Below are positions 22,162 through 59,960 of a DNA stretch of 64,000 nucleotides, piece after piece. Below the pieces are notes generated by a model. That model ran no database searches, was not told where the DNA came from, and saw nothing but the letters and a program-made list of their open reading frames with translations. The stretch is from Isoetes taiwanensis (lineage: Eukaryota; Streptophyta; Lycopodiopsida; Isoetales; Isoetaceae). The translations under genes and the position numbers were made by a program. How positions within the stretch are numbered: position 1 is the stretch's first letter; every line of letters starts with the position of its first letter. The stretch covers positions 2,213,089-2,277,088 of the forward strand of contig JAJEKV010000101.1 of the NCBI GenBank assembly GCA_021234155.1, given 5' to 3'.

Positions 22162-22309
22162 CCGCCGCCAGCTGGTTCTGATTCGATTTTCCTTTTCTTC
22201 CCGCCGCCATGTCCGGCCCGGAACTTCACGCCATAAGAACTCCCTTTTCCCTGGAGCGCCATCATCGGCTGGAAGCCTCTCGCTGGCTGCATGTGCGGAT
22301 CCGCTTATG

Positions 22310-24960: not shown

Positions 24961-25262
24961 CAGGAAATTCCGCTCACCATCCTACCTCGGAATATGCCGA
25001 TCCTTGGGAGAAATAACTTTGATCGACCACCGTCAGGTCGCCTTGTTGACCCCCTACCCGCCCTTGCAATCGCGATCCAACGTGGTTCATCACTTTCAGA
25101 TGTCAAACTTTGATCCCCGCGACATGTCAACGCGTCATGAAGCAACCTCCTGGATGAAACTCAACAACCTCTTTCTTCACCACGCAGAAGCCCACGATCC
25201 CGCCATGCTTCAACCTCCTCGGCCATATTAACCAAGACACTGGTTATCCCACATATTCGTGA

Positions 25263-26010
25263 ATGTCGAGATTGTGGATGTGGGCAAATAATCACCGCCC
25301 ATTGCCGCAAATCTTCCCGCCACCCTATCGTATCAAAGCCGCCACGCCTTCAAAAGTTCAAACACATTTTCGGAGTTACAGAGACCTTCTGGGATCAACA
25401 AAACCTTGGGGAACTCACCATTCCTACCAAATCATGCACGCCCCGCATAGCAACGACATCGCTCAACCCCCACTACCGTGGATCGCTGGGCCAAGGCGTA
25501 AATTGACAAACCCTTGCCGCAGTTTGATCTATGAGGTCAAACATTCAATGGGTGAGCCCCTTTGTGTCATTGCACCTCAAACACAATGGAAAGATCCGGT
25601 TTTATGCGGACTACCGAAACTAAATCAAAGCCAAGCTGAGCGCGATCATTTTCCACTTCCCTTCACGCACTGTGTTCGAAGAGGTTGGTTTGACATGAGA
25701 TGTACTCTTCATGGATGGTTTTTCTTCGGGCTACAATCGATCTCAATCAAAGAATCTGATCAACTCAAGACTACTTTCACCACCCCGGGGGCACTTTTGC
25801 CCCGCAAGGTGGTTCCTTTGATTATCAAACTCTCCATCAACGCTTTCAACGCATCATGCTCTCGATTTTGATTTTATGAAGGAAAACCCTTCTTGCAAAT
25901 TTTCAAGATGACTTCCGGCCCTACATGGTATGGCTGACCATTTGGATAAATTGAACTCGCCTTTCGTGAAATGTGATGAGTCCCACATTAGTCTTAATCC
26001 CCAGAAATGC
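25263..26010 (+). pseudogene. Element A reverse transcriptase region
   Basis: Frames in this stretch carry the RT palm and fingers order seen more clearly in element B. HFPLPFTHCV is followed by the strand with GYNQIS-like remnants, then KESDQLKTTFTTPG (about 25752-25793), then a region corresponding to F-Q-D-D-F as a relic (about 25905). Shifts and missing bases prevent a full domain. Confidence 0.65.
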
Positions 26011-26720
26011 ACCTTTTAAGGCCACTTCAGTGTTCTCATTAGGACACGCTGTACAAGAAAGGCAGGTATCACCACTGATCCTCGCCAAAATCGGGCTTGT
26101 GTGCTCAAAGCTCAAGCACCAATATCAAGGGGACACGCTTCTTTCCCCGGTAAGGTAAATTATTACTCCACCTTCATTCCCGGACTTGCAGCCATTGCCG
26201 ATCCCATTCATAAACTCATCGGTGATGAATCCACCTTGCTTGGAATTCCTCAAAGATGTCGCTTCCAACCGCTTGAAGCTTTTACTTGCTCAGGCCCCGC
26301 TTCTTGTTCCTCCTCAATGGGACAAGCCCTTTCATGTCCATGTAGATGTCTCTGCTGCTCGCTATTGAGATGTTCTTTTCAAGAATATGATGCGCATTAA
26401 TCGACAAAACCAAAACCCATATGCCGCCAGTAAAACTCAATTGGAGCCGTTGAACTACTCGCCACCGGCTGAAGCCTTGGGTTTAATTTTTCGTGTTCAA
26501 CGCCCGCCACTATCTTTAGGCAATGATCAAATTCTTGTTGACCACCAAGCACCTTTATTTGATCAACAAATCCACGCCTACCTGCCGCATTGCTCGTTGG
26601 GTTCTCCTTCCGCAAGAATTTGCACCTTTGAAATTGTTCACAAGGCAGGCAAATCTCATGTTGTCCCGGATACACGCATCCACGTGATGATCCTCCATGG
26701 GAGTCTCGTGATGCCTTTCG
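26011..26720 (+). pseudogene. Element A RT connection and RNase H region
   Basis: The plus strand gives VNYYSTFIPGLAAIADPIHKL (about 26157-26219), the conserved connection segment after RT ('yyr.fi..fa.ia.Pl..Ll'). It is followed by RNase H-type sequence including VDHQA.L (about 26540) and KAGKSHV (about 26642). RNase H removes the RNA strand during reverse transcription. Broken by shifts. Confidence 0.7.
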
Positions 26721-26849
26721 ACGCCAACTCTTTCTCGGGTCACGACCACGCCACATTGGTTCCACAACTTTCGCCAGATCTCCTCACAGCGCCTTTCCAC
26801 CGGAGGACGCCTTCCTCCAGCCAAGCCGCCAATCCCGCCGACACCAATT

Positions 26850-27939
26850 TCTCCGCGAGGTCCGCGGATCACACCCATGGTTGCGCAGCCATCTTTACAA
26901 AAAGGGCAAGGGATACCGCCCTCGATGCCGTGGTTCTCCTCATAAGGTCCCAGATATTGTCCGAGAAGCCCATGAAGGGCTCTGGTGGTGGTCATTTTCA
27001 TGGTGACACCACCAAGACGCAAAAATCCTTCTTGGCAGTTATTTTGGCCCATGCTCTTCAAAAGACGCCACACGCCACGACGCGGTGATGCTTGTCGGGG
27101 TGGGGAAGGCCCACGTCCGGTGATGCTCTTTCTCCTCGACGCCGGCCGCCACGCCACTTCCTTTCAAAGAAATGGAGATGGATTTTGTGGGACCCATTGA
27201 TCCGCTTCAAGCACATATCACACCCGCGTTCGCCACATTCGGGTTTCAATCGACCACGCTTACCAAATGGGCTTTAGCTTGCGCACTTCCGACAACACCA
27301 GCCAAAGCACCGCCAAGGTCATCTATCGAAGAAATCATCACGCTGCTTTGGCTGCCCCACCTGAGTCGGGTCGCTGATCGCTGTCCATTTTATCAATCAT
27401 ATCATCAAGGAGCTAACGGATTATCTATGATCCATCATCACAAGAGCACACCTTACTATCCCCAAGGAACGGATTGGCCGAAAAGCACCAACAAAACTCC
27501 TCGGGTCACAATTCTCAAGAAAATTTGTGATGCTTCTCAAATCGATTGGCAAAACAAGCTTCCTATAGTTCTTTGGGCTTACAATACTTGTTTCAAAAAA
27601 TCGCCATCGGGTCACACTTTCAAATTGGTTTATGGTCAAGAAGCTCTAATGCCCTTTGAATACATTCTTTCAACTCTCCGCTTTTCAACCGCTACAGCCA
27701 TAACTACCACGGCCAAGACTCAAAGAAAGGGTTTATCAATTGGAACAGCTTGGATGAACTTCACAAGGATGCTTATATTTGTGTTCTTCATGGACAATCT
27801 ACGTAAATCATTGCATGACAAAAGACTTAAGACAAAAACATTCAAAGAAGGAGATTTGGTTCTTCTTTATGATTCTCGCTACAAAAACTTTCCTAAGTTA
27901 AAGTTTCATGGCTTGGCCCTTATCAAATTGTTCAAGTAG
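26850..27939 (+). pseudogene. Element A integrase
   Basis: The long frame 27172-27939 contains MEMDFVGPIDPL in pieces at its start (first catalytic Asp strand), then STPYYPQGTDWPKSTNK where functional integrases have 'YhPQtnGqaE..N'. The catalytic Glu region therefore differs (G-T-D-W-P-K-S). It continues with ILKKICDAS, LWAYNTCFKKSPSGHTFKLVYG and the C-terminal FKEGDLVLLYDSRYKNFP block typical of Ty3 integrases. The integrase joins cDNA to target DNA. Upstream zinc-binding sequence is fragmentary. Confidence 0.75.
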
Positions 27940-28203
27940 TGCAACCCGCTGTTTTCAAGTCGGCTGAATTAGATGGAACTCCATTACCTACACTAGTTAA
28001 TGGCTTTCGCCAAACAATTTCATATACACCGTAAAGTGCCAATCATACAAATGATGCCGCTCAAGACAAAGACACAAATGATAGTGACTAACCAAGCAAG
28101 ATATTTATATTATATGGGGGAATTTTTTACAAAATATGGGCAGAGCCCATCTATTTCCTCGCTATGGGCAGGGCCCTATTTACAAAAAATGGCCGAAATA
28201 CCT

Positions 28204-36785: not shown

Positions 36786-36872
36786 TCATCTGTTTGGTGA
36801 TTTTTAAACTTTACGTGTGATGAAATGTTTTGAGGCTAAAACCATTAACCAAGGTAGGTAATGGAGTGCCAT

Positions 36873-37860
36873 CTAACTCTGCCAGGTTGGAAAACGCTGG
36901 TCCGACCACTTGAACAATTTGATAAGGGCCAAGCCAACGAAACTTGAGTTTACCCTAAAAATTTTTGTACACGGAATCATAAAGAAGAACCAAATCGCCT
37001 TCTTTGAATGTTTTTGTCTTCGATGTTTGTCATGTAAAGATTTTTGCAATCGTTGTCCATGAAGAACACGAATATAAGCATCCCTTCGAAGTTCATCCAA
37101 GCTTTCTAATTGATAGACCCGTTCTTTGAGTGCGGCAGTGGGATCATGAGCGGTTGCCGGTTGAAAACGGTGTTGGAAGGATGTATTCAAACGGCATGAG
37201 AGCTTCCCGACCATAAACCAATTTGAAAGGAGTGTGACCCAGTAGCAATCTTGAAACAAGTATTGTAGGCCCAAAGAAACGAGAGGGAAGTTTTGTTTGC
37301 CCACCTGTGCGTGAAGCATCACAAATTTTCTTGAGAATGGTGACGAGTTTTGTTGGTGCTTTCACAAACCATTACCTTGAGGATAGTAAGGTGTGCTCTT
37401 GTGATGATGGATCGAGATAATCCGTCAAATCGACTCCTTTATGGTATGATTGATGAAATGGACACCACGATCACCGACCCGCTCAGGTGGGGCAAATCGC
37501 GTGATGATTTGTTGATAAAGGACCGGCCGTGGCTTTGCCTGCGGTGTTGTGCGGAAGTGCACAAGCTTCCGCCCATTTAGTAGCATAGTCGGTGAGAACC
37601 AGAATGTAACGCACGGTGTGCTGCGCAGAGGGTCGATGGGTCCCACAAAATCCATTCCCCATTTGCCGAAGGGAAGTGGCGCGGCAACCGGGCGTCAAGG
37701 GAAGAGCGTCACGGCCGTCGGCCGCCCCACCACTGGCAAGCATCACACGCGGCTTGGCGCGTGCGAGCGTCTTTGAAGAGCGTGGGCCAAAAATACCCAA
37801 ACTAGAAGGATTTTTGCGTCGCGGTGGTGTCACCATGAAAATGACCACCATCTAGCCCTT
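36873..37860 (-). pseudogene. Element B integrase
   Basis: Minus-strand frames give MGNGFCGTHRPSA (relic of 'WGmDFvGPidp'), then YILVLTDYATKWAEACALP (second strand of the catalytic core) and ILKKICDASRTG with HTPFKLVYGREALMPFEYIL. The C-terminal region KKAIWFFFMIPCTK is a shifted version of the 'GDLVLLYDSR' block in A. Domain order matches Ty3/gypsy integrases. Confidence 0.75.
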
Positions 37861-37964
37861 GATGAGCTTCTCGAACAATATCCGAACTTCATGAGGTAGA
37901 ACACGGGCGTCGAAGGATGGTGTCCTTACCCTTTTGTAGAGATGTCCCGCAAACCATGGTGTAG

Positions 37965-38804
37965 TCACGCGGACCTCGCGGAGAAATTGATGGCGACGGA
38001 TTGCCGCTTGGCGAGAGAGCCGCCTCGCCTTCCGTGGAAGAGCACCGTGAGGAGGTACTGCTGAAAATCATGGAACCAATGTGGTGTTGCCGCGACTAAA
38101 AAGAGTCGAAAGCATCGTGAAAGGCGCCTCGAGACTCCAGTTGAGGGATCATCCGTGTGGATGCGTGAAAGATAATCCGACAACATGAGATTTGCCGCCT
38201 TATGAACGATTTCAAAAGGGCAAATTCTTGGAGAAGAAGGACCCAACGTGCAATGCGTCCGTGGGCGGGACTTGTTGATCAAATAAAGGAGTGCTTGGTG
38301 GTCCACAAAGAACTTGATTTTGACTGCCCAAAAGGTAGTGACTGAGCGTTGGACACGTAAAATGAGACCCAAAGCTTCACGCCTGCGGGCGTAATAGTTG
38401 GGCGCCGCCAGAATTGAGTTTTCTACCGGTGTATCGATTTGGTTTGTCGGGCAAAGATCATACTCTTGGCAAAAGAACAGCTCCAATAGCAAACGCCGAG
38501 ACATCGACATGAACATGAAAGGGCTTGTCCCATTGAGGAGGAACAAGAACCGGGCCTGAGTAAGCAAAAGCTTCAACCGTTGGAAAGCAAAGATCGCCTG
38601 GGAATTCCAAGCCCGTGGATTCGTCACCGTGAGTTTATGAATGGGATCCGCAATGGCCGCTAGTCCAGGAATGAAGGTGGAGTAATAATTGACCTTACCC
38701 GTGAAAGACCGCGGTTCCCCTTGATATTGGCCGGGTGCTTGAGCCTTGAGCACCACAACCCATTTTGGCGGGATCTCGTGGTGATACCGCTTTCTGGTCG
38801 ACAA
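37965..38804 (-). pseudogene. Element B RT connection and RNase H
   Basis: This 279-codon frame contains GKVNYYSTFIPGLAAIADPI (connection), then FFVDHQALLYLINKSRP and FEIVHKAANLMLSDYLSRIH, the C-terminal RNase H signature ('tDhkaL.yl' ... 'kG..N..aDaLSR'). The catalytic Asp positions are partly visible. Downstream is a spacer to the integrase. Confidence 0.8.
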
Positions 38805-38874
38805 CGCGGCTCAACAACACCGAGGGTGGCGCAAAAGGTGCATTTCTCGTGATTGAGACTAATGCCTGGACTCA

Positions 38875-39680
38875 TCACATTTCTCGAAGACGAAGTTCCA
38901 ATTTATCCAAATGGTCAGCCATGGAACCAGAGGCGTAGAAGTCATCTTGAAAAATTTGTAAGAAGGGATTTTCCTTCATGAAATCATGAAAACCGAGAGC
39001 ATGATGCGTTGAAATGTTGATGGAGAGTTTGATAATCCAAAAAGGAACCACCTTGTAGGCAAAAAAGCCCCCTGGTGGTGAAAGTAGTCTTGAGTTGATC
39101 AGTTCTTTGATTGAGATCTCGATTGTAGCCGAAAAACCATCCATGAAGGAGTACATCTCATGTCCAAATACCTCTTCGAAACGATCTGTGAAGGGAAGTG
39201 GAAAAATGATCACGCCCGCGGGGCTGATTGAGTTTTCGGTAGTCCACCGCACGCGGATCTTACCATTGTGTTTGAGAGGCAATGACGATGGGGCTCACCC
39301 ATTCGAAATGTTTGACCTCATAGATCAAACCCGCAAAGGGAGTTTGTCAATTTCCCTTGACGCGATCCGCACGGTAATTAGGGTTGAGCCGGTCTGCATC
39401 GTTGCTAAACCGGTCGCGGCATCGATTTGGTAGGAATGGTGAGTTCCCCAAAGCTTTTGTTGATTCCCGAAGATCTCGTAACTCCAGTGAAAATGTGTTT
39501 GAATTTTTGAACAGCTTGACTACCCCACAATACGATAAGGGGCGGAAGATTTGGCAAAAGAATGCGACGGGTTGATTGTTGCCCACGCCCACGATCTCAA
39601 CCCGAGTCTCAATATGAGGGATCACCGGTGTCTTGGACAATATGAGCGGCGGTTGAAGCATAACAGATGATCGTTGCACT
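38875..39680 (-). pseudogene. Element B reverse transcriptase
   Basis: Frame 38875-39282 shows the RT order: GKIRVRW (fingers), FPLPFTDRFEEV, GHEMYSFMDGFSATIEISIK (D-x-x-S-G-Y-N-Q-I region with small losses), FAYKVVPFWI (relic of 'fayk.mPFGL'), and the active-site strand FLQIFQDDF with D-D (where F/YxDD is expected), then ADHLDKLELRL. The F-x-D-D-F and 'YNQI' type motifs point to the Tat/Athila side. Frame 39347-39679 upstream holds the N-terminal RT part with EILGVGNNQPVA-like sequence. Confidence 0.8.
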
Positions 39681-39851
39681 TTTATGGTGAAAAGAGGGTT
39701 GCCGAAGTTTCATCCAGCCAGAGGTTGCTTCATGACGCCGTGTACATCAACGTGGAGTTGCGGAGGTTCAAAGATCCGAAAAGTGATCAACACGTTGGAT
39801 TCGATTGCAAGGAGCCGTAAGGGTCAAGCAAAGCGCCCATACCGGTCCCGA

Positions 39852-40544
39852 TCAAGAGTCATTTCTCCCCAAGGATCGGATATTCGGGTAGGATGACGAG
39901 GCGCACTCACGTGGAGCCTGAACTTGATAAATATTTTGAGCTTCCTCAGAATCCGTGTCCGAGAGAGAGGGTTCCGCATGTTCAACAGAAATGATCCTGC
40001 CTGTTTGCAAGTCCATGGTGGCATTGAGGTGACCATCAGTGATGACTAACTGGTCCGTGGCCCAGTAATGGATACTCTTGGCCTGGCGGAGAAAAGGTCT
40101 GCCGACCAACATTTCATAGTCACCGGATCTTCGCCCGGCTTTCCAAACTCCAAATTCCATGGGGAAGCGGAGATCACCGATGTTGATGTGAAGAAGAGGC
40201 GTGACGCCTTGAGGTCGCGTGATATGGCCATTAGCCAACTTGATGTCATATGGGGCACGAAAGAGTTGTGTGATGCCCATTTGTTTGCGGAGTTTATCCG
40301 TGATGAGATTGACTGCGCTACCTCCATCTATTTGAACATGGTTGACTTGCTGATTACCCACCGTGGCATGGACCGTGGGTGTAGAGGTAGCCACAGCCCC
40401 AACTAAAACAGTTGGGAGTGGTAACTGGTCCTTGAGAGCGTGACGAGTTTGAGAATGGTTGCCAAGCTTAAAGGAATTTTGATCTTGGCTAGCTCCTCTT
40501 GGAGTTCCGTGAGGCACATGAGAAAAAGGATCTGGCGGTTCCAC
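39852..40544 (-). CDS. Element B aspartic protease region (230-codon open frame)
   Basis: This is the best preserved frame of the family. It carries VNHVQIDGGSAVNLITDKLR (active-site loop D-G-G-S), then IKLANGHITRPQG, then LHINIGDLRFPMEFGVW, then MLVGRPFLRQAKSIHY, corresponding to the second hydrophobic strand and the 'iiGrpwl' motif before the RT of plant Ty3/gypsy elements. The protease matures the polyprotein. The Thr/Ser-to-Gly change at the D-x-G triad position is a lineage feature, not necessarily a loss of function. Upstream sequence of gag is in another frame. Confidence 0.75.
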   Translation of the reverse strand: MEPPDPFSHVPHGTPRGASQDQNSFKLGNHSQTRHALKDQLPLPTVLVGAVATSTPTVHATVGNQQVNHVQIDGGSAVNLITDKLRKQMGITQLFRAPYDIKLANGHITRPQGVTPLLHINIGDLRFPMEFGVWKAGRRSGDYEMLVGRPFLRQAKSIHYWATDQLVITDGHLNATMDLQTGRIISVEHAEPSLSDTDSEEAQNIYQVQAPRECASSSYPNIRSLGRNDS

Positions 40545-40999
40545 GGGTCTTTGGAGTCGCGTGGTAGTGAAGCGGCAACTTCTTTGAGTAAGTCAACCTC
40601 TGCGGCAATATTGGGATACGCCCGAGAGCCGTGGAGGTTGAGATGTGGAAGGTGTATCTTGTCTTTGTTGAGCTCCTCGTGGTGGCATGAACATTCGCTA
40701 GCGCAGCGCCTTCAAAGCAGCCTTTGCATGAGATTTAAAATGCTTTGGCTAACTTTAGGCATGACATGTGGCATGAGTTTCTCCAAGTCGTGCAAAGTGA
40801 ACCTTTTTTTTTTCCCTCATGAGGAATGGTGTCAACCGCAAAGGCGGTTCGCGTGCCATTTGGAATAATGGTCAAGGGCGGATGCCCCGGTGAAATCGTG
40901 TAACCAAACCAACCCAATTGGATGGCTGGACCGGAGGATTAAGTGCCCGAAAAGATTTCCTCCTGTGGCTTGTTGATCCAAATTTTAGGTTGATTTGCC

Positions 41000-42596
41000 G
41001 GAGCTGGTTGATAGCGTGATTGCCGAGGGCGCTCTTGGTGGCTTCTTAAGAACTGGTCACCGCCTTGTTTGCCATTAGCAATCGAGTTGGTAAGCCGAGT
41101 GAGGCGGACCGATGTGGTCCGATTGGTGCCGGGAAGCCGCACGAACTTGTGGAAGTTGAGGGCACCGCCGTGGTGGTATGACCCCATTCTTGATAGTGAT
41201 AACACCGAAGCTTTAGAAGGATCAAAAAGGAGGACGGGTTGGGTCCCCGTTGTTGCCCCCTGCTACCGGAGCAGAGTTGAGTGGTTGCACCGGGGTGGTG
41301 GGGCCGATAGTGCGATTGTTGATGAGGTGTGGTTTGCACTTGATAAACCGGTTTGTTGCGAATCTGTGGGATGAGTGCGAAAGTGCACTCTTCCGTGGCA
41401 TGATTGCACATGTTGCATCTCTTGCAATGAGGCGGGCCATTGGTGGAGTTGCACTCATTTGCCAAGTGGCCTTGGTATTTGCAGATATGGCACCGATCCG
41501 ACCGCTACCGCGGATTTGCGTGTTGAGGGCTGGACATCCGTCTGCGGAACCATAACAGTGGAATGAAAGGGAGCTCTCGGAAGAGCCACGCACGAGAGGA
41601 AACATTGGATCGAAAGTGATTGACAAGATCAATAGCCCGCCCAAGGTCTTGGGACGCAGTATTCCGCCATGAGTCAATAGCCGGAGGAAGTCCTTGGAGA
41701 AACCGCACCAAAAAATCGCTCGTGGTTGATACCCCGGAGTTTACCGAGCGTAATGTGAAGTCGACCGCAAAATCCCCTGCGCACTGCGGGCTCTTGTTGA
41801 AGTTCATTGAGTTGCTTGAGATGAAGTTGATCATCATCCGTGGGTCCCATAATGAGAAAGAAAAGCAGCCGCATTTCACCTCTTGTTTCCAATGGCTTTT
41901 GTTGGACATGAGCCATTGATGAGGAGAGCCACGCAGGTGGTGGAAAAGATGTGGAATTTCAGTTGAGGTTGCGCATGACCATTTAGGGACAGCTAGAGCC
42001 TCAAATTCTTCCATGTGGGCCCGAGCACTTTGGTCTAAGGGTTTGCCTTTAGGTGTTGCCAAAGGTGGGATAAGTCGGTTCCGAGTCCGGAAGGTAGATG
42101 TGAAAGTGCTTGGCCGACGTAAAAACAAAGATAGTGAGGATATTGAGGTTGAGTTGGATGTGGCATGGTGCCTAAGGACCCTCCCCGATGAAGGGGTGAT
42201 CATGGTTGAGGAACCCAAGCTGCTTGAGCATTGGTTTTGAGATCCGTAAGGTTGTAAAACAGAAGGGCAAGGGGAAATGTAGGGGAAAGGATATTCTGGG
42301 TAGGTGCAAAAGAGACTTGTGGATATCCTTGCCCACCCGGGAGATGATGGTTGTGAAGGAAGAGGCGATGGGTCAAGAATGATGGATGTAAAACTGTTCA
42401 GTGTATGAAAGTACCTGTTGAGAAGGTTGAGCCCCTGATAGGGCTCCCCATAGTGATGAGGAGGTGATCGAGGCCGGTGGAGCAATGTTTGCACGCTTGG
42501 GGCGGGAACCGGACGAGACAGACACGAGGGGTGGGTGGCCCGATCGGCCCTAGACCGAAGATGGCCTCCCTCTATGTCATAAGCGCATCCATACAT
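41000..42596 (-). pseudogene. Element B gag
   Basis: The 363-codon frame 41505-42596 opens with MYGCAYDIEGGHLRSR. It has a Pro/Ser-rich N-terminus, then a capsid-like part containing DQSARAHMEEFEALAVPKW and FLVRFLQGLPPAIDSW. A further frame (41046-41465) holds MANECNSTNGPPHCKRCNMC with NHATEEC (CCHC-type double knuckle) and later LRCYHYQEWGHTTT (third knuckle relic). Gag packages the RNA. Two or three single-base shifts separate the parts. Confidence 0.75.
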
Positions 42597-42730
42597 GTCG
42601 CCACAGCTTCAACCGATGGCGCTCAAAGCTGAGATGCCGCCTGAAAGGAGTTCTTCCGGGCGGAAATTTCTAACACATGGGCGCATGTAAGAAAGTATGA
42701 TTGAATCGCACTCCACGGCAGGACATGGGC

Positions 42731-43283
42731 TGTTTGGGGGTCCGGGTTCGAGAACTCTCGAAGACCCTCTCCGCGGAGGACCCGGTGGATCTAACAGAGA
42801 GTCCGGGGACTATGTCACGCCGATTTGTAAGAAAAGAACAAGAAGAAGAAAAAAGGGGGAACAAATATGAGGAAAATGATAAGCTTCCTTGATATCAATG
42901 ATGAACATACATGAGCTCTCGCAATAGAGAGAAAAACCGAAAGGAGACAAGACTCAAAACTCATCTAGAACTCATGTGCGAAGCTCTAGTCATATATATA
43001 GTACAATGGCCTTTGGCCCAATATAGACACTCGACCGGGATCTCTGCCGACTCGAAGGAGGCCCCGACAGGGAATCTTGCCGGGCAGCCTCTTGAGGTGC
43101 TCGGGATCACGCCGACGCTGGCGGTGATGGCCCGCCACTTGTCTGAGCGGCGCTCTCTGAGTGGCCGCCGCTTGGCTTCTCTTGGGCCTTAGATGACCAC
43201 CTGCGGGTTGACTGTGGATCCTTGTGCTTGACCTCGGTCCGTCAGAGCATGAATAGTCCTCGCACGAGGCAATGTGACTAACA
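42731..43283 (-). repeat. 5' LTR of element B
   Basis: Reverse strand runs TGTTAGTCACATTGCC...CCCCAAACA. Same blocks as the other three LTRs of this family, including the strand-reversed GGCCCAATATAGACACTC. Flanked on the right by ATGTG. Confidence 0.9.
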
Positions 43284-48930: not shown

Positions 48931-49169
48931 CCCACCATGGAGTCTTATGGGGTCTGATAGACTTGTTAATCCTCATGGATATTAATGTTCAGTTCAAGTC
49001 AATCCAATTTGGGATCTTCATATGCCTTTGCATTCTAGTTTATTATAAGTATGAGGACATTTTGACACAGGGCATGTAATGACAACATGTTGACTTCATG
49101 CTGAGTCATATGGATGAGAGTAGGGCAATGATTGTATGGTGGTGCTTACAAAATTATCTATAAAGAACC

Positions 49170-49385
49170 TTAAGAAATCACACGACTTTAGAGAGCCATA
49201 CTTCCTAAAAGACACATTCCTTAAAAAACTACACTTATTGATAAATCACACCTCCAAAAACTATACCTTCTTAAAAACACCACCACCTCAAAAAACAAAA
49301 ACTACAGTTCTTTTAAGAAAAAAACATACGTCCTTAAAAAACCACATCTCCTAAAAAGAAAAAACCACAACTTCTTAAAACTGCG
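49170..49385 (+). repeat. A-rich degenerate repeat tract
   Basis: Words of the form AAAAACCACA / CTTCTTAAAA / CCTTAAAAAA recur about every 20-35 bp. Low-complexity tract, no coding signal. From its end to 50180 I see nothing further. Confidence 0.5.
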
Positions 49386-50329
49386 ATTTGTGGCAGTTCT
49401 TGATGAATTGAGAATCAAGAATTGATGGACGAGTTATGGCAATATATTGAAGAATCCGTAATTGTTGGACGGAACCATCTCTTCTTTGTTGGGTCGAGCA
49501 AGATTTATGTGGATCTAGCTATAGCTATGCATAAAATTTGCTATGGATTTCTGTATAAGAATTTCTCGTAGTTTCTATCCGGTATAAATAGAAATAGATT
49601 GGCAATGCCGGCAATGTTTCTCAACTCAGTAGGATTGATAAGCAACACCTAGTACCCAGTGCCCTATAAGGTATGTCTTCTATCTTCTATTTCCTAGATG
49701 TGGAAGGTTTCGTCTGATTTGTGATAAAAGAGTTTAGATAAGATCTACCAGGCAAACATGGAATTGCATGAAGCTTTATCTCATAAAAGAGTCGATCTCG
49801 CTCCAATCAGCTCCAATCTTCCTTCTAAATCACCTAAACCACCTTGAAGCCAGGTACTTGGGCTTTCGTCGTACTACTTTTTCTCTAAACCAATATGGCG
49901 GACCCAGATGGGCCTCATAGTGAGAATACCATGGTCATAGGAAACCCTCTATCTAATGGATGCACGAATACACACAAGACAATACCATAGGTTCAAATCC
50001 TATGCCACAAATATCCCTATGTAGTTACTCACTTCCCCAAATGCAAGGGAGTTGGGGAAAGAGAAATGTTCGCGTCGCGATAAATTTCTTGTAATTATAT
50101 ATATTCTTTGATGTGGTATAGTAGGTTGGCATGTAAAATGAGGAACAATAAAATATAATTGAAGGTATAAAAAAGTAGATAGCATGCATGCAAGCGTTAC
50201 CATAAAAAAATTGAGGCATGGCCAAAATATAAGCGCAGTTTTGGCTACCGGCTATGCCAAATTTTTTATGGTGAACCCGAGGGCGTATGCGTTATCTCCC
50301 TTTAACGCCTTCGTCGGTCCGAGGTTTTG

Positions 50330-50530
50330 CAAGAGAAGCAGGGGCGCCATCGCCAGAATGGAGAAGCATCGCCGGAATGGGGCGCCATCGCCAGAAGCAG
50401 GAAGCATGGAAGCAGGAAGCATGGAAGCATGGAAGCAGGAAGCATGGAGGGTTTGCAACAGAAGCAGGGGCTGCACCATCGCTGGAATGGAGGACTGCCG
50501 CAACTAATCTGCCGGAATGGAGGAGCCCTG
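50330..50530 (+). repeat. Purine-rich minisatellite (AAGCAGGAAGCATGG units)
   Basis: The core 50394-50450 consists of alternating AAGCAGGAAGCATGG and AAGCATGG units, surrounded by repeated CGCCGGAATGG/CATCGCCAGAA words. The many overlapping frames here (both strands) arise from the repeat and are not genes. Confidence 0.75.
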
Positions 50531-50935
50531 CCACAACTAATCTGCGTGAAGCTTCCAATCAGCATTCTTATGGGTCATCAGATCTGGCCCTAATCTTCTA
50601 AACCAGGATTTCTCTGTTTCTCTGCTCCCGCAAATCATGTTCTGGCAATGCTTTTTCTGTCAGACAAAAACAAGAAATCGTATTCTCATATTATTCTAGG
50701 ATTTTATAAGATTTGCATGCTAACACTCTAGGATGTTACAGGAAGTTGCGAGAAACAGAGCATAAAATTTCAGCCACTCAGATGTTATTAGCTGATAACA
50801 GCATTTTGATCAACGGCTGAGATTAAATCTCAGCCTGTAAAACCGAGGACCAGAGCGTTAAGGAAATCTACGTTTTTACCTATCCGTTATATCTATCTAA
50901 TTATTAAGCTGATTGATTTTAGCAAGGGGGAAGTT

Positions 50936-51068
50936 TGTTCGTTAAGAAAGAGTATTTTTAGCGTCCTATGGGTCGAAAATATCCTTGGGGCCGAGAAGGT
51001 TTATCGATGCTAATTTTGTTCGCTAAGGAAAAGTACATTTAGCGTTCTATGGGTCGAAAATATCCTGG
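50936..51068 (+). repeat. Two-copy direct repeat of ~55 bp
   Basis: The block GTTCGTTAAGAAAGAGTA....TTAGCGTCCTATGGGTCG.. is repeated about 78 bp later as GTTCGCTAAGGAAAAGTA....TTAGCGTTCTATGGGTCG.., both followed by AAAATATCCT.GGGG. Confidence 0.75.
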
Positions 51069-51069
51069 G

Positions 51070-52141
51070 GACCCATTTATACTAGTGGGCCAAATAAAGC
51101 AGGAGTGGTTGAGGCTCCAATTATGGAGGAAGTAGACTTGTAACTCATCATACTAAAACGGATCTCTAAATTTAGAATTAGGCGACATAAATAACGAAAA
51201 CGAGCCTTAAAGTACAAAAAAGAACCCGCCTATGACGTGGATAAATCTTGGCAATCTAACCAAACATAGCAACGGCGGAGATTAATTCTCGATGTTAAGA
51301 TCTATCTAATCGTTTGCCTAATCTGAAGCGTTGGGATGAAGGGCTGCGATGAGAGGAAATAGAATATTCTGTTTTTGCTTTTAAGCTTCCCACCTTCCTG
51401 GCCGTTGCCGCTAAGCAAACGCACGGAGGATGGAGGGCTGGGATGTGGGTAAAATGACAGCTCAATATGTGGGGAGGATCTGGGCGGTTGAAGGGGATAG
51501 GAGGGGGAAAGGGACGGCGGGGATTGGAGCTGCGTTGTGGGAGAGGATCTGAGCCGGATGTGACACGTGGAAAGGTGGGAACGTGGTTTGCAAAGAAGCT
51601 CGGCGCCAGGGAAAAGGCAGAGAATAGAGAAGAATGAGGAGGAGGCGCGTCGCCGGAATGGAGCAACAATGGAGGATTTAGGGTTGTGCCGGAGCTCCCT
51701 TTTGCCATAGCTTTTTGCCGGATCTGCCCTTTCTCTTCGGCCCCAGCTCCATTTCTAGCTCCCCTGCTGCCGGATCTGAGCCTGCCTTACATTCGTAAGA
51801 GTTTTTCTCTGTTTCCTTTGCTTCCACAGAATTCCTTTCCCTGTTTCGCGATTTTATTTCAGCTCCTCCTTTTCTGTCATACATACATTGTCCTAAATTC
51901 AGTGGCGGGCTGTAACGATACACGATTGAAAAAACGGATCTTCAATTCTAATTGATTCCGTCGTTTGTAAGTATTGGTTAGTACTTGAGCAATATATGAG
52001 AGCAGCCTTGTGAGTTGAGTTTTTTCCTTGTGACGAAAAACTCATTTTATACAAGGCAATAACAATAGCATTCTGAAGCCGATCGCTTTTCTAACTTGTT
52101 CAGTTTATTCCATCCACACCGACATATCGTAGCAGTTCACA
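51070..52141 (+). other. Upstream region of the membrane-protein gene
   Basis: This should contain the promoter and 5' leader of the gene starting at 52142. No TATA box or intron can be assigned with confidence. The 137-codon minus-strand frame at 51295-51708 has no motif and is probably chance. Confidence 0.35.
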
Positions 52142-54443
52142 ATGTCTAATAATAATACCGGTTTCAACATACCTGTTACGAATTTTCCTTCACATCAGCT
52201 TAGCAATGGACTGTATGTTTCGGGGGCGTCCTGATCAGTATAAAGGAAAGGACGCCCACAATGACGTCCACCGTAATGCCCTACACAGGTGGTGATATTA
52301 AGAAGTCGGGGGAGTTGGGAAAGATGTTTGATATTCCAGTTGAAACAGTAGCAAAGGGAAAAAAATCAGGATCACTTGGAACAACTCCGGCAAAAACTGG
52401 AGGAACAACTGTGTTATCTCGTTCCCACTCCGGGCCCTTACCTTCGGGGGCCCCTCGATCAGCATTCTCTACGTCTGGACCTCTTGCATCCGGTGGATCG
52501 ATTAAGCAGCCCAGCACTACCCAAAGGTGTAATTCTGGCCCACTTACAGGAGCTGGAGTTCCAGGCTCACATGGATCAAAATCTGGGCCAATAACAAGTC
52601 AAGGTCTCAAAACCTCAGGCCCTCTTTCTGGCGGTGCCACACCTAACCCACTCAAGACATCAGGACCTCTTACTCCTAATCTACCAGCAACTGGTCTGAT
52701 CACGTCGGGCCCCCTTTCGTCTACTGGAGCTCCAAGGAAAGGGTTGTCTGGTCCTCTTGAATCTGGTCATTCAGGAAGGTTTGTTCGAGCAGCATCTGTG
52801 CATAGTCAAGCCATTAATAATATGAGCCATGAGACCCATTACTCTTTCAAGGGCAGCTTTCCAAGGATTATCTTGTGGACCGTTGTTCCTCTCTTTGTCA
52901 TGGGGTTCATTGCGGGGGGTTTTATTCTGGCAGCTGTTCAAAACCCTATACTGCTCATTGTTGTGGGGTCACTTTTTGTGGCATTAGTGGTGCTGATTAT
53001 TTGGAATGCCTGCTGGGGAAAAAGAGCAGTTTTTGGATTCATTGCGAACTTCCCAGATGCACAGCTTAGCAATGCAAAAGATGGTCAATACGTGAAGGTC
53101 ACTGGGGTATGTTATGTTTGTTTCTGCTGTTGAGGTATTAACATGCTAGGCTATCTAAAATAGATTTGTGAAACTTACGTCAAGAAAGGCAATTAAGGAA
53201 CTGCTTATACGAATCAACAATTGCATTGTGGAATAAAAAATGTTATGTCAAGCCTTGCACCAGGTTTCTAATATCCCTGACTGCAAAAGCTATCTTATCT
53301 TCCCCTGTATTCTGATGGATGAACACTACATGCTTGGTGTTTGTTAGTCATGCATCTGGGCCTGTTCTTGAGACAATCTTTATAGAAAAATGGTTTGCAT
53401 CACGCTTTTATGTATGGATAAACGGGTCTAGACACACCTTAAACACATGATTGCGCTTCTTGGCTGTTCAATATGGAATCATTCCTGAAATGGCCGCTTA
53501 TGAATTTCTTTTGCCTTTCCTGACTGACAATTATATTTCTGTTTGTATTGCAGGTAGTAACTTGTGGAAGTGTACCACTTGAATCTTCATATCAAAAAGT
53601 GAATCGCTGTATATATACCTCAACTGGACTCCATGAATACAGAGGGCTTGATTCCAAACCTGTCAATGAAACACAACGCCGTTTTAGTTGGGCCACCCGA
53701 CACTTGAGGTTGGTTAAAAACTTCTGACATCTGGGCTTCTGATGTTTTCTACGAACAAGCAATTGCAAAGTAATCATACTATAATGTCCCTAATTGGTGT
53801 TTGCTTATGGCAGAGGCATGTTGTTGATTTCTATATTTCGGATTTCCAATCTGGCTTACGAGCTTTAGTAAAGGCTGGTTATGGTGCTAATGTGACATCC
53901 TATGTGGAAGAAAGTACTGTTGTAGAGATTGCTAGCAAGGAATCAGAACTGCCAGTGGATTTCACCCATTGGTTGGGAATAAGAAACCTTTCAAGAGAGG
54001 ATCGCCGTATGCGGCTCACAGAAGGGTATGTGGCCTTGAACTCAAAGTGTAAATTTATCTGCCTGACATTCTTAGATTTGAAGGAACACACTTGACATGA
54101 ATATCTCAAGCTTATATCGTTTTAAGTATTCTGCTGGATCTGTACATGTGAAATGCTTGTAAAACTTAGTTGATTCAACCTAAATTGGTTTGACTACTGT
54201 TTGTTGTTTTCTTTAACATTTGTCCGGTATTAATGACGGTTAACTTACAGGTATATCAAGGAAGGAAGCACTGTTACTGTATTAGGCGTGGTCCAACGAC
54301 ATGATAACGTTTTGATGATCATTCCTCCACCTGAACCAGTATCAACTGGTTGCCAGTGGACAAAGTCCCTTTTGCCCGCTAACCTTGAAGGAATTGTTAT
54401 CAGATGTGATGAAGTTTCTAAAGTTGATGGCATACCACTATGA
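52142..54443 (+). CDS. At1g16860-family plant membrane protein (4 coding exons, 5' exon with two 1-bp shifts)
   Basis: Exons are 52142-53106, 53554-53708, 53816-54025 and 54251-54443; introns are 447, 107 and 225 nt, all GT-AG. The product is about 505 residues (467 if started at the ATG at 52261; Arabidopsis At1g16860 is about 470). The N-terminus FPSHQLSNGLYVSG is followed, after two corrections, by a GRPDQ.KERTPTMTSTVMPY block and GGDIKKSGELGKMFDIPV. A Ser/Gly/Pro repeat region rich in SGPL units comes next, then two hydrophobic segments (ILWTVVPLFVMGFIAGGFIL and PILLIVVGSLFVALVVLIIW), then DGQYVKVTG|VVTCGSVPLES, HVVDFYISDFQSGLRALVKA and YIKEGSTVTVLGVVQRHDNV. The family is conserved in land plants with unknown biochemical function, and a membrane location is predicted. 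The extra bases are one G in the run 52222-52226 and one A in 52242-52244. Acceptor 3 uses the second AG of CAGAG. Confidence 0.93.
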
Positions 54444-55685
54444 ACCAGCCTCAAGCTATTTTCCTTTTTCAGCCTTTGTTTATGTTTATAATTGCCTCTG
54501 TTGATTGGAGCTTCTTGCTCCAGTTGGTAGCCAAGCTGTGAATGCCTTTTTTCTTTTTCCTTATGGCTGCTGGCGTATAGCCAGGGCTACTGTAAGTCTT
54601 AAGCTTCAAGGTGAACGTCTAAAGTTCCTTCTGCGTTCATCACCATATTTCAGAAACTCTTCCCTATGTGCTTGACCATATGAATTACCTTGCAGTGGGC
54701 TTGCAGCAATTTGAAGCTGACGAGGTTCGTAATAAACATTGTCAAGAGCTTGGGTAGGGTGACCAAGTTGTATTCATGAGATTGGAATTTCAAAGGGTCT
54801 TTCAGCTCAATAAAGCCTTCGAAGGGACATGCCAGTAGGCAGCGAAACATTCTCACCACTAATTTTTTAATGCTTGACCATACATGTACAGTGTGCCAAT
54901 AACATTTTTGTACTTCTCATACTTGACAGTATGTTGAATATGTAGGGCAGCTTGATCTGGGTCAAGCTTTTGTAGTAGGATGTAGATAAAGTGAAATTGA
55001 GTTCTCAGTAGAGTAATGGCAGTTTTGAAGTATATTCATGGCGATGATGTGGAGGATTTAAGACCTGTTTTGCAGAGATCTTTATGTACACAAATTATGA
55101 ATTGATTATTCTGGGCTTTCTACTATAAAATCTCTATGGAACGGACCAGTATGAGTTTTCTTTAGCAACAGCTGTGACTACTTGTACATTTTTTTGATTC
55201 ATGTATGTAACCTCTCTAAAGTTGTATATTGATTGATAGATTGCTTCATGCAGCTGGCTTACCTGTTTACGCGGAATGGCATTCATAAAAAACTCTGGCA
55301 AGCACTTCCCTTGCCTTCTCGTTATGCTGCAGAGAAATTGTTTAATGGCTTGTGCGCGATTACTTAAGTGTAAAGGCGTAAGTTGTCAACTTTGAAACAT
55401 CACCATTGCAGGCTTTTCTTTGGAGACAACAGGTGCAAAGTGTATTATTAAGAAACTGCAAAGTAAGCATGTGATGAGAAAGTGACAAAATGAGGAAGCA
55501 TAAAATAAACTGTCAAAGCATGTTATACGGCATCTAGAGGTTGTGCTGCTTCATCAATATTAATAATCTGGCTCAATCTTGTTACGAAATTGTCATGGAT
55601 CAGGTGGGGACCCAGCTGTACATGTTTTTGCCTTATTAACGTGGAATATTTATTTAGGGCACACGTCCACATCTTCTCATATTTG
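54444..55685 (+). other. 3' flank of the membrane-protein gene, no further gene
   Basis: Probably includes the 3' UTR. No polyadenylation site can be fixed. Short frames do not show motifs. Confidence 0.4.
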
Positions 55686-55953
55686 ATGGCTCAGCAACCT
55701 CTGACAAGGTGTGTATTATCGCTTAAGTGTGTATTATCGCTTCTTAACCGTTAGATTAAGTGTTTTTAAAAAAAAATTCAATGGTGCACAAGTCAAGATG
55801 CTCTCTCCTGCAATCCTGTGCGTCCATTCTGAGTCTTTTACAGGTCAAACTTGGGGTGTTTGACCTGCACCTAAAATACACACAATATACATCAGACCAT
55901 GCTGTATTATGGCAAGAAATACAGTCCTGTGTATTATACATGTTAAAGAGGAC

Positions 55954-56077
55954 CTGGGGAATCGAACCCCAGTTAAACCTGAACCTGAACTCAAATACCT
56001 GTATGTGTCAAAGCAAAAGAGAACCAAATGAATATAAGGAAAACCAGAAACTAGGAGTCTGAGGAATTGAACCTCAG
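55954..56077 (-). repeat. Two tRNA T-arm-like hairpins
   Basis: Plus-strand 55954-55972 is CTGGGG-AATCGAA-CCCCAG and 56059-56077 is CTGAGG-AATTGAA-CCTCAG: 6-bp stems with 7-nt loops. On the minus strand the loops read TTCGATT and TTCAATT, exactly T-loop-like, and contain B-box sequences (GGTTCGATTCC, GGTTCAATTCC). No complete tRNA can be folded around them. Confidence 0.6.
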
Positions 56078-56288
56078 TTACTAGCCATTACTCAACCATG
56101 CATAAAGAGGCTTCACAGTGGAGCCACGTTATCTAAAGGGGCCAAAGCCCTCTAAAGCTGAAAGGTAGCGTCAAGAACAAGATACATTTGAATAAAATCA
56201 AAAAGATGTCAATGTCATTCATTTACCACAAATTGTCAAGAAAGAAGAAACGTAAAAGTTAACATGAAATCGCAAGTCAAGCGGGGTG

Positions 56289-56360
56289 CGCGGGGATCGA
56301 GATCCCACACTCACACCAAAGAGCGACCATCGGTACGCGGGGATGAGGTCCCACGACCCA
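56289..56360 (-). repeat. Two further B-box-like / palindromic repeats
   Basis: CGCGGGGATCGAGATCCCAC (about 56290-56308) and CGCGGGGATGAGGTCCCAC (about 56337-56354) are related copies about 48 bp apart. Each can form a short hairpin resembling a degenerate T-arm. Confidence 0.45.
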
Positions 56361-56517
56361 CTAAAAAAGACCCATAAAACAAGCAGTGGGCTGCCACCAT
56401 AAATGGCAGCCAAGATAAAAGTTATTTTCAGCAGAGTTCAACATGTTTCATTATCGATCAAAACGACCAAAGTTCAACAAGTTTATCAATTTCTAGCCCG
56501 CCCAACCATAGCATCCC

Positions 56518-57148
56518 TCACCAACAAGTCAATTTGCGGATCTCCGAGTCGGTAAAAGCCACGGCAAGGCTCATGTGAGAGCGTAAAGCATGGATATCCG
56601 ATGGCAAAACACCAAGGCGATCCCAACTGACTGCAGATAAGGCAGCATCCATAGCCCCATAGAGGCTGCGAAGCTGCCTCTTAAGTATCCGCAAGGAAGC
56701 AGCTATGCGGTGAGCTTCAAGACCAACCTTGTATCACACAATTTAAAAACTCCTCGGCCAGGTGAATGTCTCTTCTTCTTCCCGAGGATAAGCAAGAGGA
56801 TTTGGATGAGAGTCATCCACCGGCATGACCACAAACCCAGGGCTTATATGCACATCAACAGGAGTCACATGCACAGGAGTTACATGGACTTCAGAAGCTT
56901 CCGTCTCCATAACACGAAATCAACCTGGAAAATTACAAAGCAAACAAACAAACAAGCAAGAATTAGAAACCTGTACATAGCTCGCCCACAAAAATGGATC
57001 TCATCCGATTTGCCATTGTATGATCTCCAAAGATGAATGGGGATGAAATCGGCACCAACATCGGTACATTGGCCCGAGAACCAAAAGACCTTTCATCCGT
57101 GTCCTCAAAGTTCTCGTCCCGCTTTCGTCTGCCCGGGGATGCTATCAT
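56518..57148 (-). CDS. Accessory minus-strand frames of the HUH element
   Basis: Downstream of the Rep gene on the same strand, 56963-57148 is a 61-codon frame (SPGRRKRDENFEDTDERSFG). 56743-56910 is a 55-codon frame (METEASEVHVTPVHVTPVDV) ending in TAA. The same frame resumes after one more stop as GLEAHRIAASLRILKRQLRS ... DRLGVLPSDIHALRSHMSLA to a stop at 56518. This last part is helical, coiled-coil-like and reads as genuine coding sequence. They could be exons of one accessory gene or the degenerated tail of the Rep gene. No family recognised. Confidence 0.35.
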
Positions 57149-57355
57149 CCCAATAGCGGCGCCGCCGGCCCATTCCTCTCAAGCTGGAACATACCCCACC
57201 GGCGACCCAAATATAATAGCCCCGACATCCGATGGCAAACAAGAGGAAGGATTCGTTACACGCCAAGCGACCCTTACTCTATGCTCATTAATATGAGCAG
57301 AATTAGAAGGATGATCCAGAGTCATTTGAGCGTATATTTAGAAGACCTCAACATC

Positions 57356-58150
57356 TTACATACAAAGATAAGTTAGACTAGGTGTATGCCTCCGTCCGCC
57401 ATGGTAAAAAACAAAGTGAGCAGCCTTATTCATCAGATTTCTGTTATCAAGAACACACAATCCTTTAGTATCACCTGCCCCCCATCTAAGGTATAGATCT
57501 TTACCCCTTTCAACCATTCCCTCGGATACATTGTACAGATGACAAGTATAATGCACTTTGCCGATATCCTTCATACAATACCCGACCATGCCCTCAAAAC
57601 AATGGAGCTTGGTGTTTTTTAAGGCCTTGCAGATCAAAACTACGCCCGTGGGCTTGGGCTTCCAGTTAAAAGCAGATTTAATAGCCTCATTCACGCTCTT
57701 TGGATTTCTAAAACGACATCTTAAAACGGCCTGTACATGCAGATGGTCGGCTGAGGACCCTCTTTCTAATGCCACAGCACCAGCCAGGCATTTAGAGTTG
57801 CAGAACAAAACAAGGCCATCATAAAATGATCTTGGCACATCTTGGCCAGAAAGACCCAGCGTGACAGAAACATCAAGCCAATCCAGATTCATATTCAAAT
57901 CCACAAGTGGAACAGACTGGGTTGCCTGGCCTGGGCCAGATGGGAAGGAAGCATCAGCCTGGCTTCTAGCAAGCCGACCACTTCTGGCTGCTCGACGCAG
58001 GGACATGGCAACAAGAACAAGGGACCAAGACAGCAAAAAAACAGAAGAACAGGGATGGCGCAGGCGCTTACCTTCAAGGGCCGATGAAGATATGTGAGCA
58101 AGATCATCGGCTCCATGCCCATCCTCTGCGCCAAATTTAGAATCGCCCAA
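57356..58150 (-). CDS. Rep-type HUH endonuclease, helicase-less (Replitron-like)
   Basis: This is a 264-residue open frame. Residues 136-140 are H-L-H-V-Q, the metal-binding HUH motif (motif II of rolling-circle Rep proteins). Residues 191-195 are Y-C-M-K-D, the nucleophile-tyrosine motif III (YxxKD), about 55 residues downstream as in Rep endonucleases. The region before (YDGLVLFCNSKCLAGAVALE) fits the first strands of the fold. Residues after (HYTCHLYNVSEGMVERGKDL) resemble conserved sequence of eukaryotic helicase-less HUH transposon proteins (Replitrons). Expected activity is nicking one DNA strand with covalent 5' attachment to initiate replication-based transposition. The first ~85 residues are low-complexity, so the true start may be Met49 or Met86. 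The C-terminus stops soon after NLMNKAAHF and may be truncated by a shift. The alternative is an endogenous fragment of a CRESS-DNA-type virus Rep, but no helicase, coat or stem-loop origin is seen. Confidence 0.7.
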   Translation of the reverse strand: MGDSKFGAEDGHGADDLAHISSSALEGKRLRHPCSSVFLLSWSLVLVAMSLRRAARSGRLARSQADASFPSGPGQATQSVPLVDLNMNLDWLDVSVTLGLSGQDVPRSFYDGLVLFCNSKCLAGAVALERGSSADHLHVQAVLRCRFRNPKSVNEAIKSAFNWKPKPTGVVLICKALKNTKLHCFEGMVGYCMKDIGKVHYTCHLYNVSEGMVERGKDLYLRWGAGDTKGLCVLDNRNLMNKAAHFVFYHGGRRHTPSLTYLCM

Positions 58151-58371
58151 TCAAGCGCTCTCCTCCAAAGAAAATAATAGGAAGGCAAGAAAGGAACCAT
58201 CGAAATAAAACTAAACCCTAAAATACCCTTTCTCGGCCAAACTCAGGTATTTTATCAGTATTTATACGGTTTTAATACAAATACATTCCAAAAACCTTTA
58301 TAAATCTTATGTAAGAAACATACGACATTTCAACCAGCAGACATTAATGGCTCAGCAACCTCTGACAAGGT

Positions 58372-58940
58372 TAAGTCTTGGTGGGTGGTCTTTTGCTTCC
58401 AGATTTCGAGGTCTATGTGTTGGGGTCGCTTTTTAAAAATTTCGACTTTTGTCTTGTGCAAACATTTACACTATATCAAACGGTACCAACTATTTCCTAC
58501 ACATGTGCTACTGTTTTAGCGTTTGTTATTTGTTAGCTTGTCATTCAGCGCTAAAGTCTCCCTCCTTCAATATGGTACGAATTCTGTTATTTGGCCAAAT
58601 GGGCCCTTTGCTTAGTATATTCTTTGTCTCCCAAATTCTTTTATTGTTTGACCGTTGCATTTTATATTTGACAAAATGTTATGGAGATTCAAAGAGGACT
58701 TGCTTATAACGGCATCTTTTTATGAACGTGAATTGCTTACAACCCTTTTCTTATCTTAAGGAAAACCATAAAAACCATGGATCTGGTGAAAATAATGATG
58801 TAAGCTCTATTACGTCATGAGGTTGTACATCTACTACTTGCTATACACATGTACTTAGTTGGGAAACTTAATGTTTCCTTATATCACTAATATATATACA
58901 GGTATTATTAGATGTGTGGTTTTGTCATCCCATGGGCGTG
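58372..58940. other. No recognised feature
   Basis: The open frame 58449-58709 (+) is hydrophobic by composition of AT-rich DNA, with no motif. This is the host sequence to the right of the 25-bp repeat. Confidence 0.35.
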
Positions 58941-58943
58941 TTC

Positions 58944-59130
58944 ATAGAGATTCATCCCAGCCGTCCAATCACGAAATGGAAGGCCAAGATAATGCCACAT
59001 CATTGTGGGGTGCGGAGGCATTCATGCGCATGCACCACATAGGGATTCATCCCAACTGTCCAATCACGAAATGGAAGGCCACGATCATGCCACCTCATAG
59101 GGGATGTGGAGGCATGCATGGGCATAGCTG
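58944..59130 (+). repeat. 95-bp tandem duplication
   Basis: TTCATCCCAGCCGTCCAATC at 58951 recurs as TTCATCCCAACTGTCCAATC at 59046, each followed by ACGAAATGGAAGGCCA.GAT, ATGCCAC.TCAT and GGAGGCAT.CATG. The ORF 58859-59206 spans this repeat and is probably not a gene. Confidence 0.85.
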
Positions 59131-59309
59131 TCGGATGCAGGAAGTCTTGCCTCGCGTTCAAACAACCATATCTTGCAATGGGGGCATCGGATCAAGGCGG
59201 GGCTAGTGCCGTTGGATTCCTCTCGTCGAGAGCTTTTTAATTAGTAGGTTAGTATCATTTTGTCGCTAGTTTTGTTGCTAGTGGAGCCAATGTGGTCAAA
59301 TTTTAAGAG

Positions 59310-59960
59310 GTCAAATTTTAAGAATTGTTGTGGAATCTTAGAATTTTAAAATCTATGGTAATTAAGAGAATCTTCATGGGACCTAAGAGAATCTAGGAGA
59401 ATCTCAAAAGAATTTTAAGGAATCTACAAGAACCTTAAAGAGAGTCTTTGGAAATGTAGGGGAATCTAAGGGAATCTTCATAACATCTTTGAGAATCTAT
59501 TAGAATCTTAATGGAATCTCGAAGAATCTAGGGGAATCTTCATAGAATCTAAAGGAATCCAAGGGAACCTATATAGAATCTTGGAGAATCTAGCAGAATC
59601 TAGGAACCTAGGGGAATCTTAAGAGAATCTTCGAGAATCTACTTAGAATCTAAAAGAATCTTCATAAAATATAAGAGAATCTAAGGGAATCCTTATGGAA
59701 TCTTAGGAATTCCAGGGATTCGTCATAGAATTTAAAAGAATCTAGGCGAATTTTCATAAAATATTTGAGAATCTAGGGGAATCTTGATAAAATCTTTGAT
59801 AATCTAGGGTAATCTTTTTATATTATAAATCTATGAGAAGCTAGGGGAATCTTCATATAATCTTACGAAATCTATGAAAAGTTTTATAGAATCTTAGGGA
59901 ATTCAAGACAGCCTTAATGATATCTCAAGGGACCAAGGAAATCTTAGAGAAATCCAAGTA
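59310..59960 (+). repeat. Degenerate GAATCT minisatellite array (~650 bp)
   Basis: The hexamer GAATCT recurs at least 25 times at spacings of mostly 10-14 bp, in phrases such as AGAATCTAGGGGAATCTTCATA. The array is strongly A/G-rich on the plus strand, imperfect, and without an exact period. No coding potential. Confidence 0.85.

Follow-up and report, generated by a model that had tools for sequence, protein, structure and literature searches.

A very probable Replitron of the lycophyte Isoetes taiwanensis, apparently very young, with a sharp 5' end and a loose 3' end

Replitrons were reportedly described by Craig in 2023, and the other eukaryotic transposons that depend upon an HUH nuclease are the Helitrons, in which a PIF1-type helicase is fused to the HUH domain and two tyrosines are present. 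An HUH and tyrosine motif is also carried by viral Reps; in the Rep of CRESS viruses, an SF3 helicase follows the HUH domain and a capsid gene lies nearby. Among prokaryotes, the Y1 transposases (IS200/IS605 and RAYT) are single-tyrosine, helicase-less HUH enzymes with a presumed single-strand intermediate. In the part of a review that deals with Replitrons (PMC10741241), these elements are given target-site duplications of 2-8 bp, direct terminal repeats of 5-11 bp, and a size of 0.9-4 kb, while their hosts are listed as green algae, liverworts, mosses, lycophytes, and ferns. The same part of the review describes the Replitron enzyme as distantly related to Helitrons and the latter as lacking a target duplication (PMC10741241).

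Here, we analyzed a stretch of 64,000 nucleotides of the Isoetes taiwanensis genome (the window), in which an initial annotation had pointed out a minus-strand ORF as a helicase-less, Replitron-like HUH endonuclease gene in a plant genome. The ORF and its landmarks are as follows.

57356..58150, minus strand: ORF of 264 codons plus stop, ending at a frameshift (codon ~261) relative to its relatives
57491..57868, minus strand: Replitron_HUH domain PF21859, residues 95-220, from Pfam
57737..57745, minus strand: HUH motif H136-L137-H138, invariant in a 19-row alignment
57578..57580, minus strand: presumed catalytic tyrosine Y191 (YCMKD), invariant in the same alignment

The listed start of the ORF is a TTG, and its first ATG is codon 49. 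A search of the translated ORF against profile HMMs, which had been proposed as a check, matched the full-length Pfam family Replitron_HUH (PF21859; E=6.9e-19, 68.9 bits at a cut-off of 28.5, profile positions 1-127 of 128), and the Replitron-like character of the protein was thereby borne out. The two motifs already noticed from the letters, HLHVQ and YCMKD, are indeed separated by 55 residues (H136 to Y191). In an alignment of the ORF with 18 stop-free copies (19 occur among L002-L030, of which L003 was omitted), the columns of H136, H138, and Y191 are invariant. YCMKD contains one tyrosine, Y191, the presumed catalytic residue. A six-frame Pfam scan of 55683-58371 at E values up to 10 returned no family besides PF21859; neither a helicase, a reverse transcriptase, nor a DDE domain was detected there, and no SF3 helicase or capsid was matched in any of the six frames of the element. 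Together with the alignment, this agrees with the single-tyrosine, helicase-less layout that had been described. Searches of the PDB by sequence and by profile yielded no credible chain for the ORF protein, and the structure prediction that had also been proposed, a single-sequence AlphaFold model, was too poor to be informative on the HUH fold (mean pLDDT 39). No relative was found at E<=1 in a protein collection that included plants, nor in one scan of viral contigs. Among copies of the family, dN/dS of the HUH region was 0.03-0.11 in three within-subfamily pairs, while nine between-subfamily pairs had a dN of 0.12-0.22 with saturated dS. Judged from such substitution ratios, the HUH region of the family is evidently under purifying selection.

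A search for other copies in the same genome had also been suggested, and among 3756 first-look candidates of a protein search at least 145 places, counting the window, proved related, each with E<=1.5e-80. Open frames of ~420-440 codons recur in this genome-wide match list. With the 158 bp at the 5' end as a query, 40 genomic places were matched; the match spans all 158 bp in 31, and it is 100% identical in 20 of these, one of which is the window. Comparison between copies delimited the following features.

55709..58346, minus strand: whole element, very probably a Replitron, 2638 bp; close copies cease to be colinear here or close by, and an empty site is available
55709..55744, minus strand: 3'-terminal array of the element, two 18-bp units in tandem, TTAAGCGATAATACACAC, from copy comparison
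55686..55710, plus strand: left copy of the target-site duplication, 23-25 bp, a direct repeat that is single in the empty site
58347..58371, plus strand: right copy of the target-site duplication, 23-25 bp, likewise single in the empty site

The element starts with TAATGTCTGC at 58346 and finishes with ...TAATACACAC at 55709, the latter with a 2-bp ambiguity. Alignment of the window with five close copies, L031-L035, extends from 58346-58352 to 55709-55722, and colinearity is lost beyond; one of them, L033, is internally deleted. The 5' end is sharp, as TAATGTCTGC is common to the window, L031-L035, and 20/20 further copies, and the flanks all differ in these 20; it should be noted that the 20 were chosen for this comparison by their match to the TAATGTCTGC 5' end. 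The base that precedes the 5' end is an A or T in all 26 copies. The 3' end is loose, since it falls in other copies at variable points within or after an array of the 18-bp TTAAGCGATAATACACAC unit. In subfamilies B and D the start is CATAAT or ATAATG and doubled CATAATAC-like units form the end, while subfamily C has a TAAT start and no such array was found at its end. By eye, direct terminal repeats of 4-6 bp are discernible in three subfamilies (TAAT, CATAAT, and ATAATG). There is no inverted repeat of >=11 bp between the two element ends, folding of the terminal DNA gave nothing convincing (z-scores from -1.98 to 0.83), and searches with Rfam and for tRNAs had no match. In the 3' part of the element (~55940-56080), two stretches resemble a tRNA T-arm by eye (GGTTCGATTCC-like), and Rfam had no match there. 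We also considered 25/28-bp direct repeats as the terminal repeats of the element, but copies lose their homology inside of these repeats and the empty site has one, so this reading was dropped. In a separate observation, two places have a tail-to-tail arrangement, in which the 3' end of one copy abuts the inverted 3' end of another: the 3' end of L035 (after ~5670) and C801:398198-398398 (L076 and L091), the latter with a 5'-end fragment (33 aligned bases) between the two 3' ends. Such copies could have arisen by a fold-back or by insertion into a resident copy.

The 25-bp direct repeat flanking the element occurs only at its two places in the window when up to 3 mismatches are allowed, and was found in 0/100 shuffles. 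To count duplications across the family, we started from 26 of the 31 copies with a full-length 5' end (the window, L031-L035, and the 20 further copies) and left out nine without a 3' end in the stretch read, as well as c75 and L035, because another copy abuts each of these two inverted. Among the remaining 15 subfamily copies, in which both ends were read, a duplication of at least 6 bp abuts the 5' end in six (23, 23, 10, 7, 7, and 7 bp, with the window being one of the 23+) and was not found in nine. Two of the six, c65 and c73, have their duplications 12-13 bp past the last array unit and are therefore weaker. When flanks of different copies were cross-paired, only 7/210 combinations had a duplication of this length (permutation p=0.0001 vs 6/15). 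Eight copies of subfamilies B and D had no duplication longer than 6 bp and a single 6-bp match, while L042, L047, and L048 (subfamily C) along with L038, L040, L041, and L045 were not counted, as their ends are unclear. Joined flanks searched against the genome recovered an empty site for all five copies with search results. For the window it matched at 100% over 150/150 with a duplication of 23-25 bp, for L033 at 95% over 97/97 with ~23 bp, for L031 at 100% over 111/111 with 7 bp, and for L032 at 97% over 120/120 with 0 bp. The empty site of L034 matched at 95% over the query and is 5 bp shorter, with a duplication of ~2 bp that was read by eye.

The region beside the element contains an At1g16860-like conserved plant membrane-protein gene (~52261-54443, plus strand), with its best matches in Selaginella (75%) and Diphasiastrum (72%). 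In a tree of 25 rows it stands beside Selaginella (97/91), within a six-row lycophyte group (100/100). The annotated plant origin of the DNA was thus correct and can be narrowed to a lycophyte. Elsewhere in the window, 21825-28037 and 36808-43063 are inverted 6.2-kb copies of a long repeat, 77% identical, with retrotransposon-like frames by eye and among further repeats, and tandem repeats with units of ~10, 15, 21, and 31 bp occupy 59294-59907, downstream of the element.

The empty site of the window lies in C1055:6109800-6121800 (L093, L092, and L094), which is a near-identical second version of window 48953-59445 apart from several large insertions or deletions. Around the empty site the two are colinear, in pieces that are 96.5-100% identical. 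Between window 51978-55710 and C1055 there are 4 substitutions in 3735 aligned columns, with the remainder being gaps; a MAFFT alignment has 12 differing columns there, 8 of which are one-base gaps. Further away, 7 of the 969 columns are mismatched at window 48953-49917. The version on C1055 is without the Replitron and has the duplicated sequence once; it further differs by ~680 bp extra near window 49917, the loss of window 50170-50859, and ~4.15 kb extra at 58896. The two versions are likeliest a pair of haplotypes kept apart in the assembly, a reading that we favor over a very recent duplication of the locus. Under either one, the insertion is younger than the split of the two versions. 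Because a near-identical, colinear version lacks the element and has the duplicated sequence once, the insertion at 55709-58346 is, as far as such a comparison can tell, real and very young. The initial annotation had also supposed the gene to be recent; this part stood, owing to the near-identical empty site, whereas the open frame that was offered as the reason did not.

The frame had been described as uninterrupted over 264 codons, which proved to be wrong, as it is open only up to a frameshift. Past codon 261, the frame stays open in 17/20 further copies (the exceptions being L032, L033, and L040) and enters a conserved region, and in as many the reading from the last codons of the ORF runs on through ...MLRSSKYTLSSSWIIPSNSAHINEHRVRAAWRVLLNP... 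or its like. The longest such continuation seen was ~120 codons (L035). The window copy is frameshifted at ~codon 261 and then again later, and its 264 codons are therefore a truncated frame. Two further blocks of the gene were located downstream.

56969..57307, minus strand: continuation of the gene (SNSAHINEHR...), broken here; from tblastn to other copies and their translations, with the region of the relatives weakly matching Replitron_C
56461..56910, minus strand: further conserved coding-like block (METEASEV... / ...AHRIAASLRILKRQL...RSHMSLA...), broken; tblastn identity of 36-93% in other copies

Replitron_C (PF21860) was matched at the expected place in 9/9 genomic copies scanned, all below threshold (13.6-16.8 bits vs a cut-off of 27). 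These nine were picked for their open frames, and L043 among them is the same place as L019. Pfam gave no Replitron_C match in the window copy as assembled, which is frameshifted ahead of that region. The block at 56461..56910 is probably a downstream exon. A GTAAG at the end of the ORF was considered as a splice donor and rejected, because 17/20 further copies read straight through it in frame. A scan of codon usage for coding exons gave no signal, and the HUH part itself did not stand out in it.

The suggestion that the gene may still be active is not borne out for the window copy, in which the assembly has a frameshifted gene. Whether the breaks are genuine is a sub-question that leaves the family assignment unaffected. 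A substantial, though still tentative, possibility is that the copy is truly dead and was mobilized in trans, with old and real breaks and a recent move at the hands of an intact relative. The frameshifts and stops after codon 261 would fit this, as would the finding that L031-L035, the five closest copies, all have a break at one point or another. Likewise, the element has 47 private substitutions vs only 4 in the 3735 flanking columns; since the flank differs from its empty version by just those 4 substitutions, the 47 cannot all postdate the insertion. Against it, differences from the nearest copy are clustered in blocks: nt 1-100, 301-900, 1401-1500, and 2301-2638 are free of them, and many lie between. 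In addition, CHG sites account for 11/12 of the private C>T/G>A changes in the window copy and 37/67 in the five copies, vs 255/1170 of the C/G sites. This excess suggests methylation-linked nanopore errors, although two of the five copies have little or none of it (L032 1/6 and L035 6/20). True deamination of methylated CHG may also be a source of private changes, and mosaicism between subfamilies may underlie some of the differences in the element. One-base gaps, for the most part in homopolymers, differ between the two versions of the host gene; frame-shifting ones lie at window 52222 and 52242 and at the C1055 counterparts of 52710 and 53035, and they are probably residual nanopore errors. 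The I. taiwanensis assembly was built from nanopore reads, and both polishing and gap filling were applied (PMC8566536). Because of the one-base gaps in the host gene, the blocked differences, and the CHG excess, we suspect that assembly error may account for a large part of the frame breaks in the window copy.

The family assignment itself has two competitors. Helitrons being the other class of eukaryotic HUH transposons, the element might be a fragment of one, or a non-autonomous Helitron relative with the HUH part only, and the review's description of the Replitron enzyme as a distant relation lends this some plausibility (PMC10741241). Nevertheless, the best and sole Pfam match is Replitron_HUH, the element has no helicase, and a clear target duplication is present here and at some other copies, all of which makes a Helitron origin very improbable. 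Even less credible is a non-transposon origin, with the gene as the Rep of a plasmid or of an endogenous CRESS-DNA virus: the HUH and tyrosine motif does also occur in viral Reps, but the sharp ends, target duplication, empty sites, and high copy number with subfamilies all speak against it, as do the Replitron-specific Pfam family and the one viral-contig scan in which no relative appeared. With high confidence, then, we regard the element as an I. taiwanensis Replitron of 2.64 kb, of autonomous type and frame-broken as assembled, which would combine a single-tyrosine HUH domain with a divergent Replitron C-terminal region and move by a single-strand mechanism.

In the mechanism that we propose for this Replitron, the HUH protein, presumably supplied in active form by some copy of the family, would introduce a single-strand nick precisely at the TAATG of the 5' end and remain covalently joined to the nicked end via Y191. 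The joined strand would be displaced or copied, giving a single-strand intermediate, while the 3' end would be cut loosely within the TAAT-bearing 18-bp tandem array. Joining of this single strand to a target with flanking A/T could follow, and once the opened site is repaired, a duplication of 0 to ~24 bp would remain. The nicking and joining steps are modeled upon the chemistry of the HUH superfamily, as set out in the relevant portion of PMC13231165. We consider the chances evenly balanced for a broader proposal, namely that land-plant Replitrons lack a fixed stagger, with a precise 5' HUH cut, a 3' end anywhere in the TAAT array, and a duplication of 0 to ~24 bp whose length depends upon repair instead of the enzyme, and that the family has been moving within the age of the two near-identical versions of one locus. 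If this is true, live Replitron transposition could be studied in Isoetes as a plant model. Direct data on the ends and integration of a helicase-less HUH transposon in a vascular plant come from this young insertion and its empty site, together with at least 145 genomic places of the family and five filled/empty pairs.

Compared with the known systems, the element resembles the Y1 transposases in its single-tyrosine, helicase-less HUH protein and presumed single-strand intermediate, except that those are prokaryotic, and no such match appeared in the PDB sequence searches. With Helitrons it shares an HUH nuclease, a sharp 5' end, and insertion beside A/T, but it differs from them by the single tyrosine in its motif, its target duplication, its Pfam family, and the lack of any helicase found. 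Its likeness to Replitrons is more extensive, comprising a full-length HUH domain of that family, the lack of a helicase, a length of 2.64 kb that falls inside the 0.9-4 kb range, and a lycophyte as a reported host group. The ends agree in part: inverted repeats, which Replitrons lack, were not found there at >=11 bp, and a short direct terminal repeat is discernible by eye, though it measures only 4-6 bp in the family vs 5-11 bp in the review. The differences from Replitrons are a C-terminal region under the Pfam cut-off, a 3' end that varies within an 18-bp tandem array, and, relative to the 2-8 bp of the review's description, duplications from 0 to ~25 bp. Integration is thus looser than that part of the review describes (PMC10741241), which is the most interesting feature here; otherwise, the element is an expected Replitron member in an expected host group.
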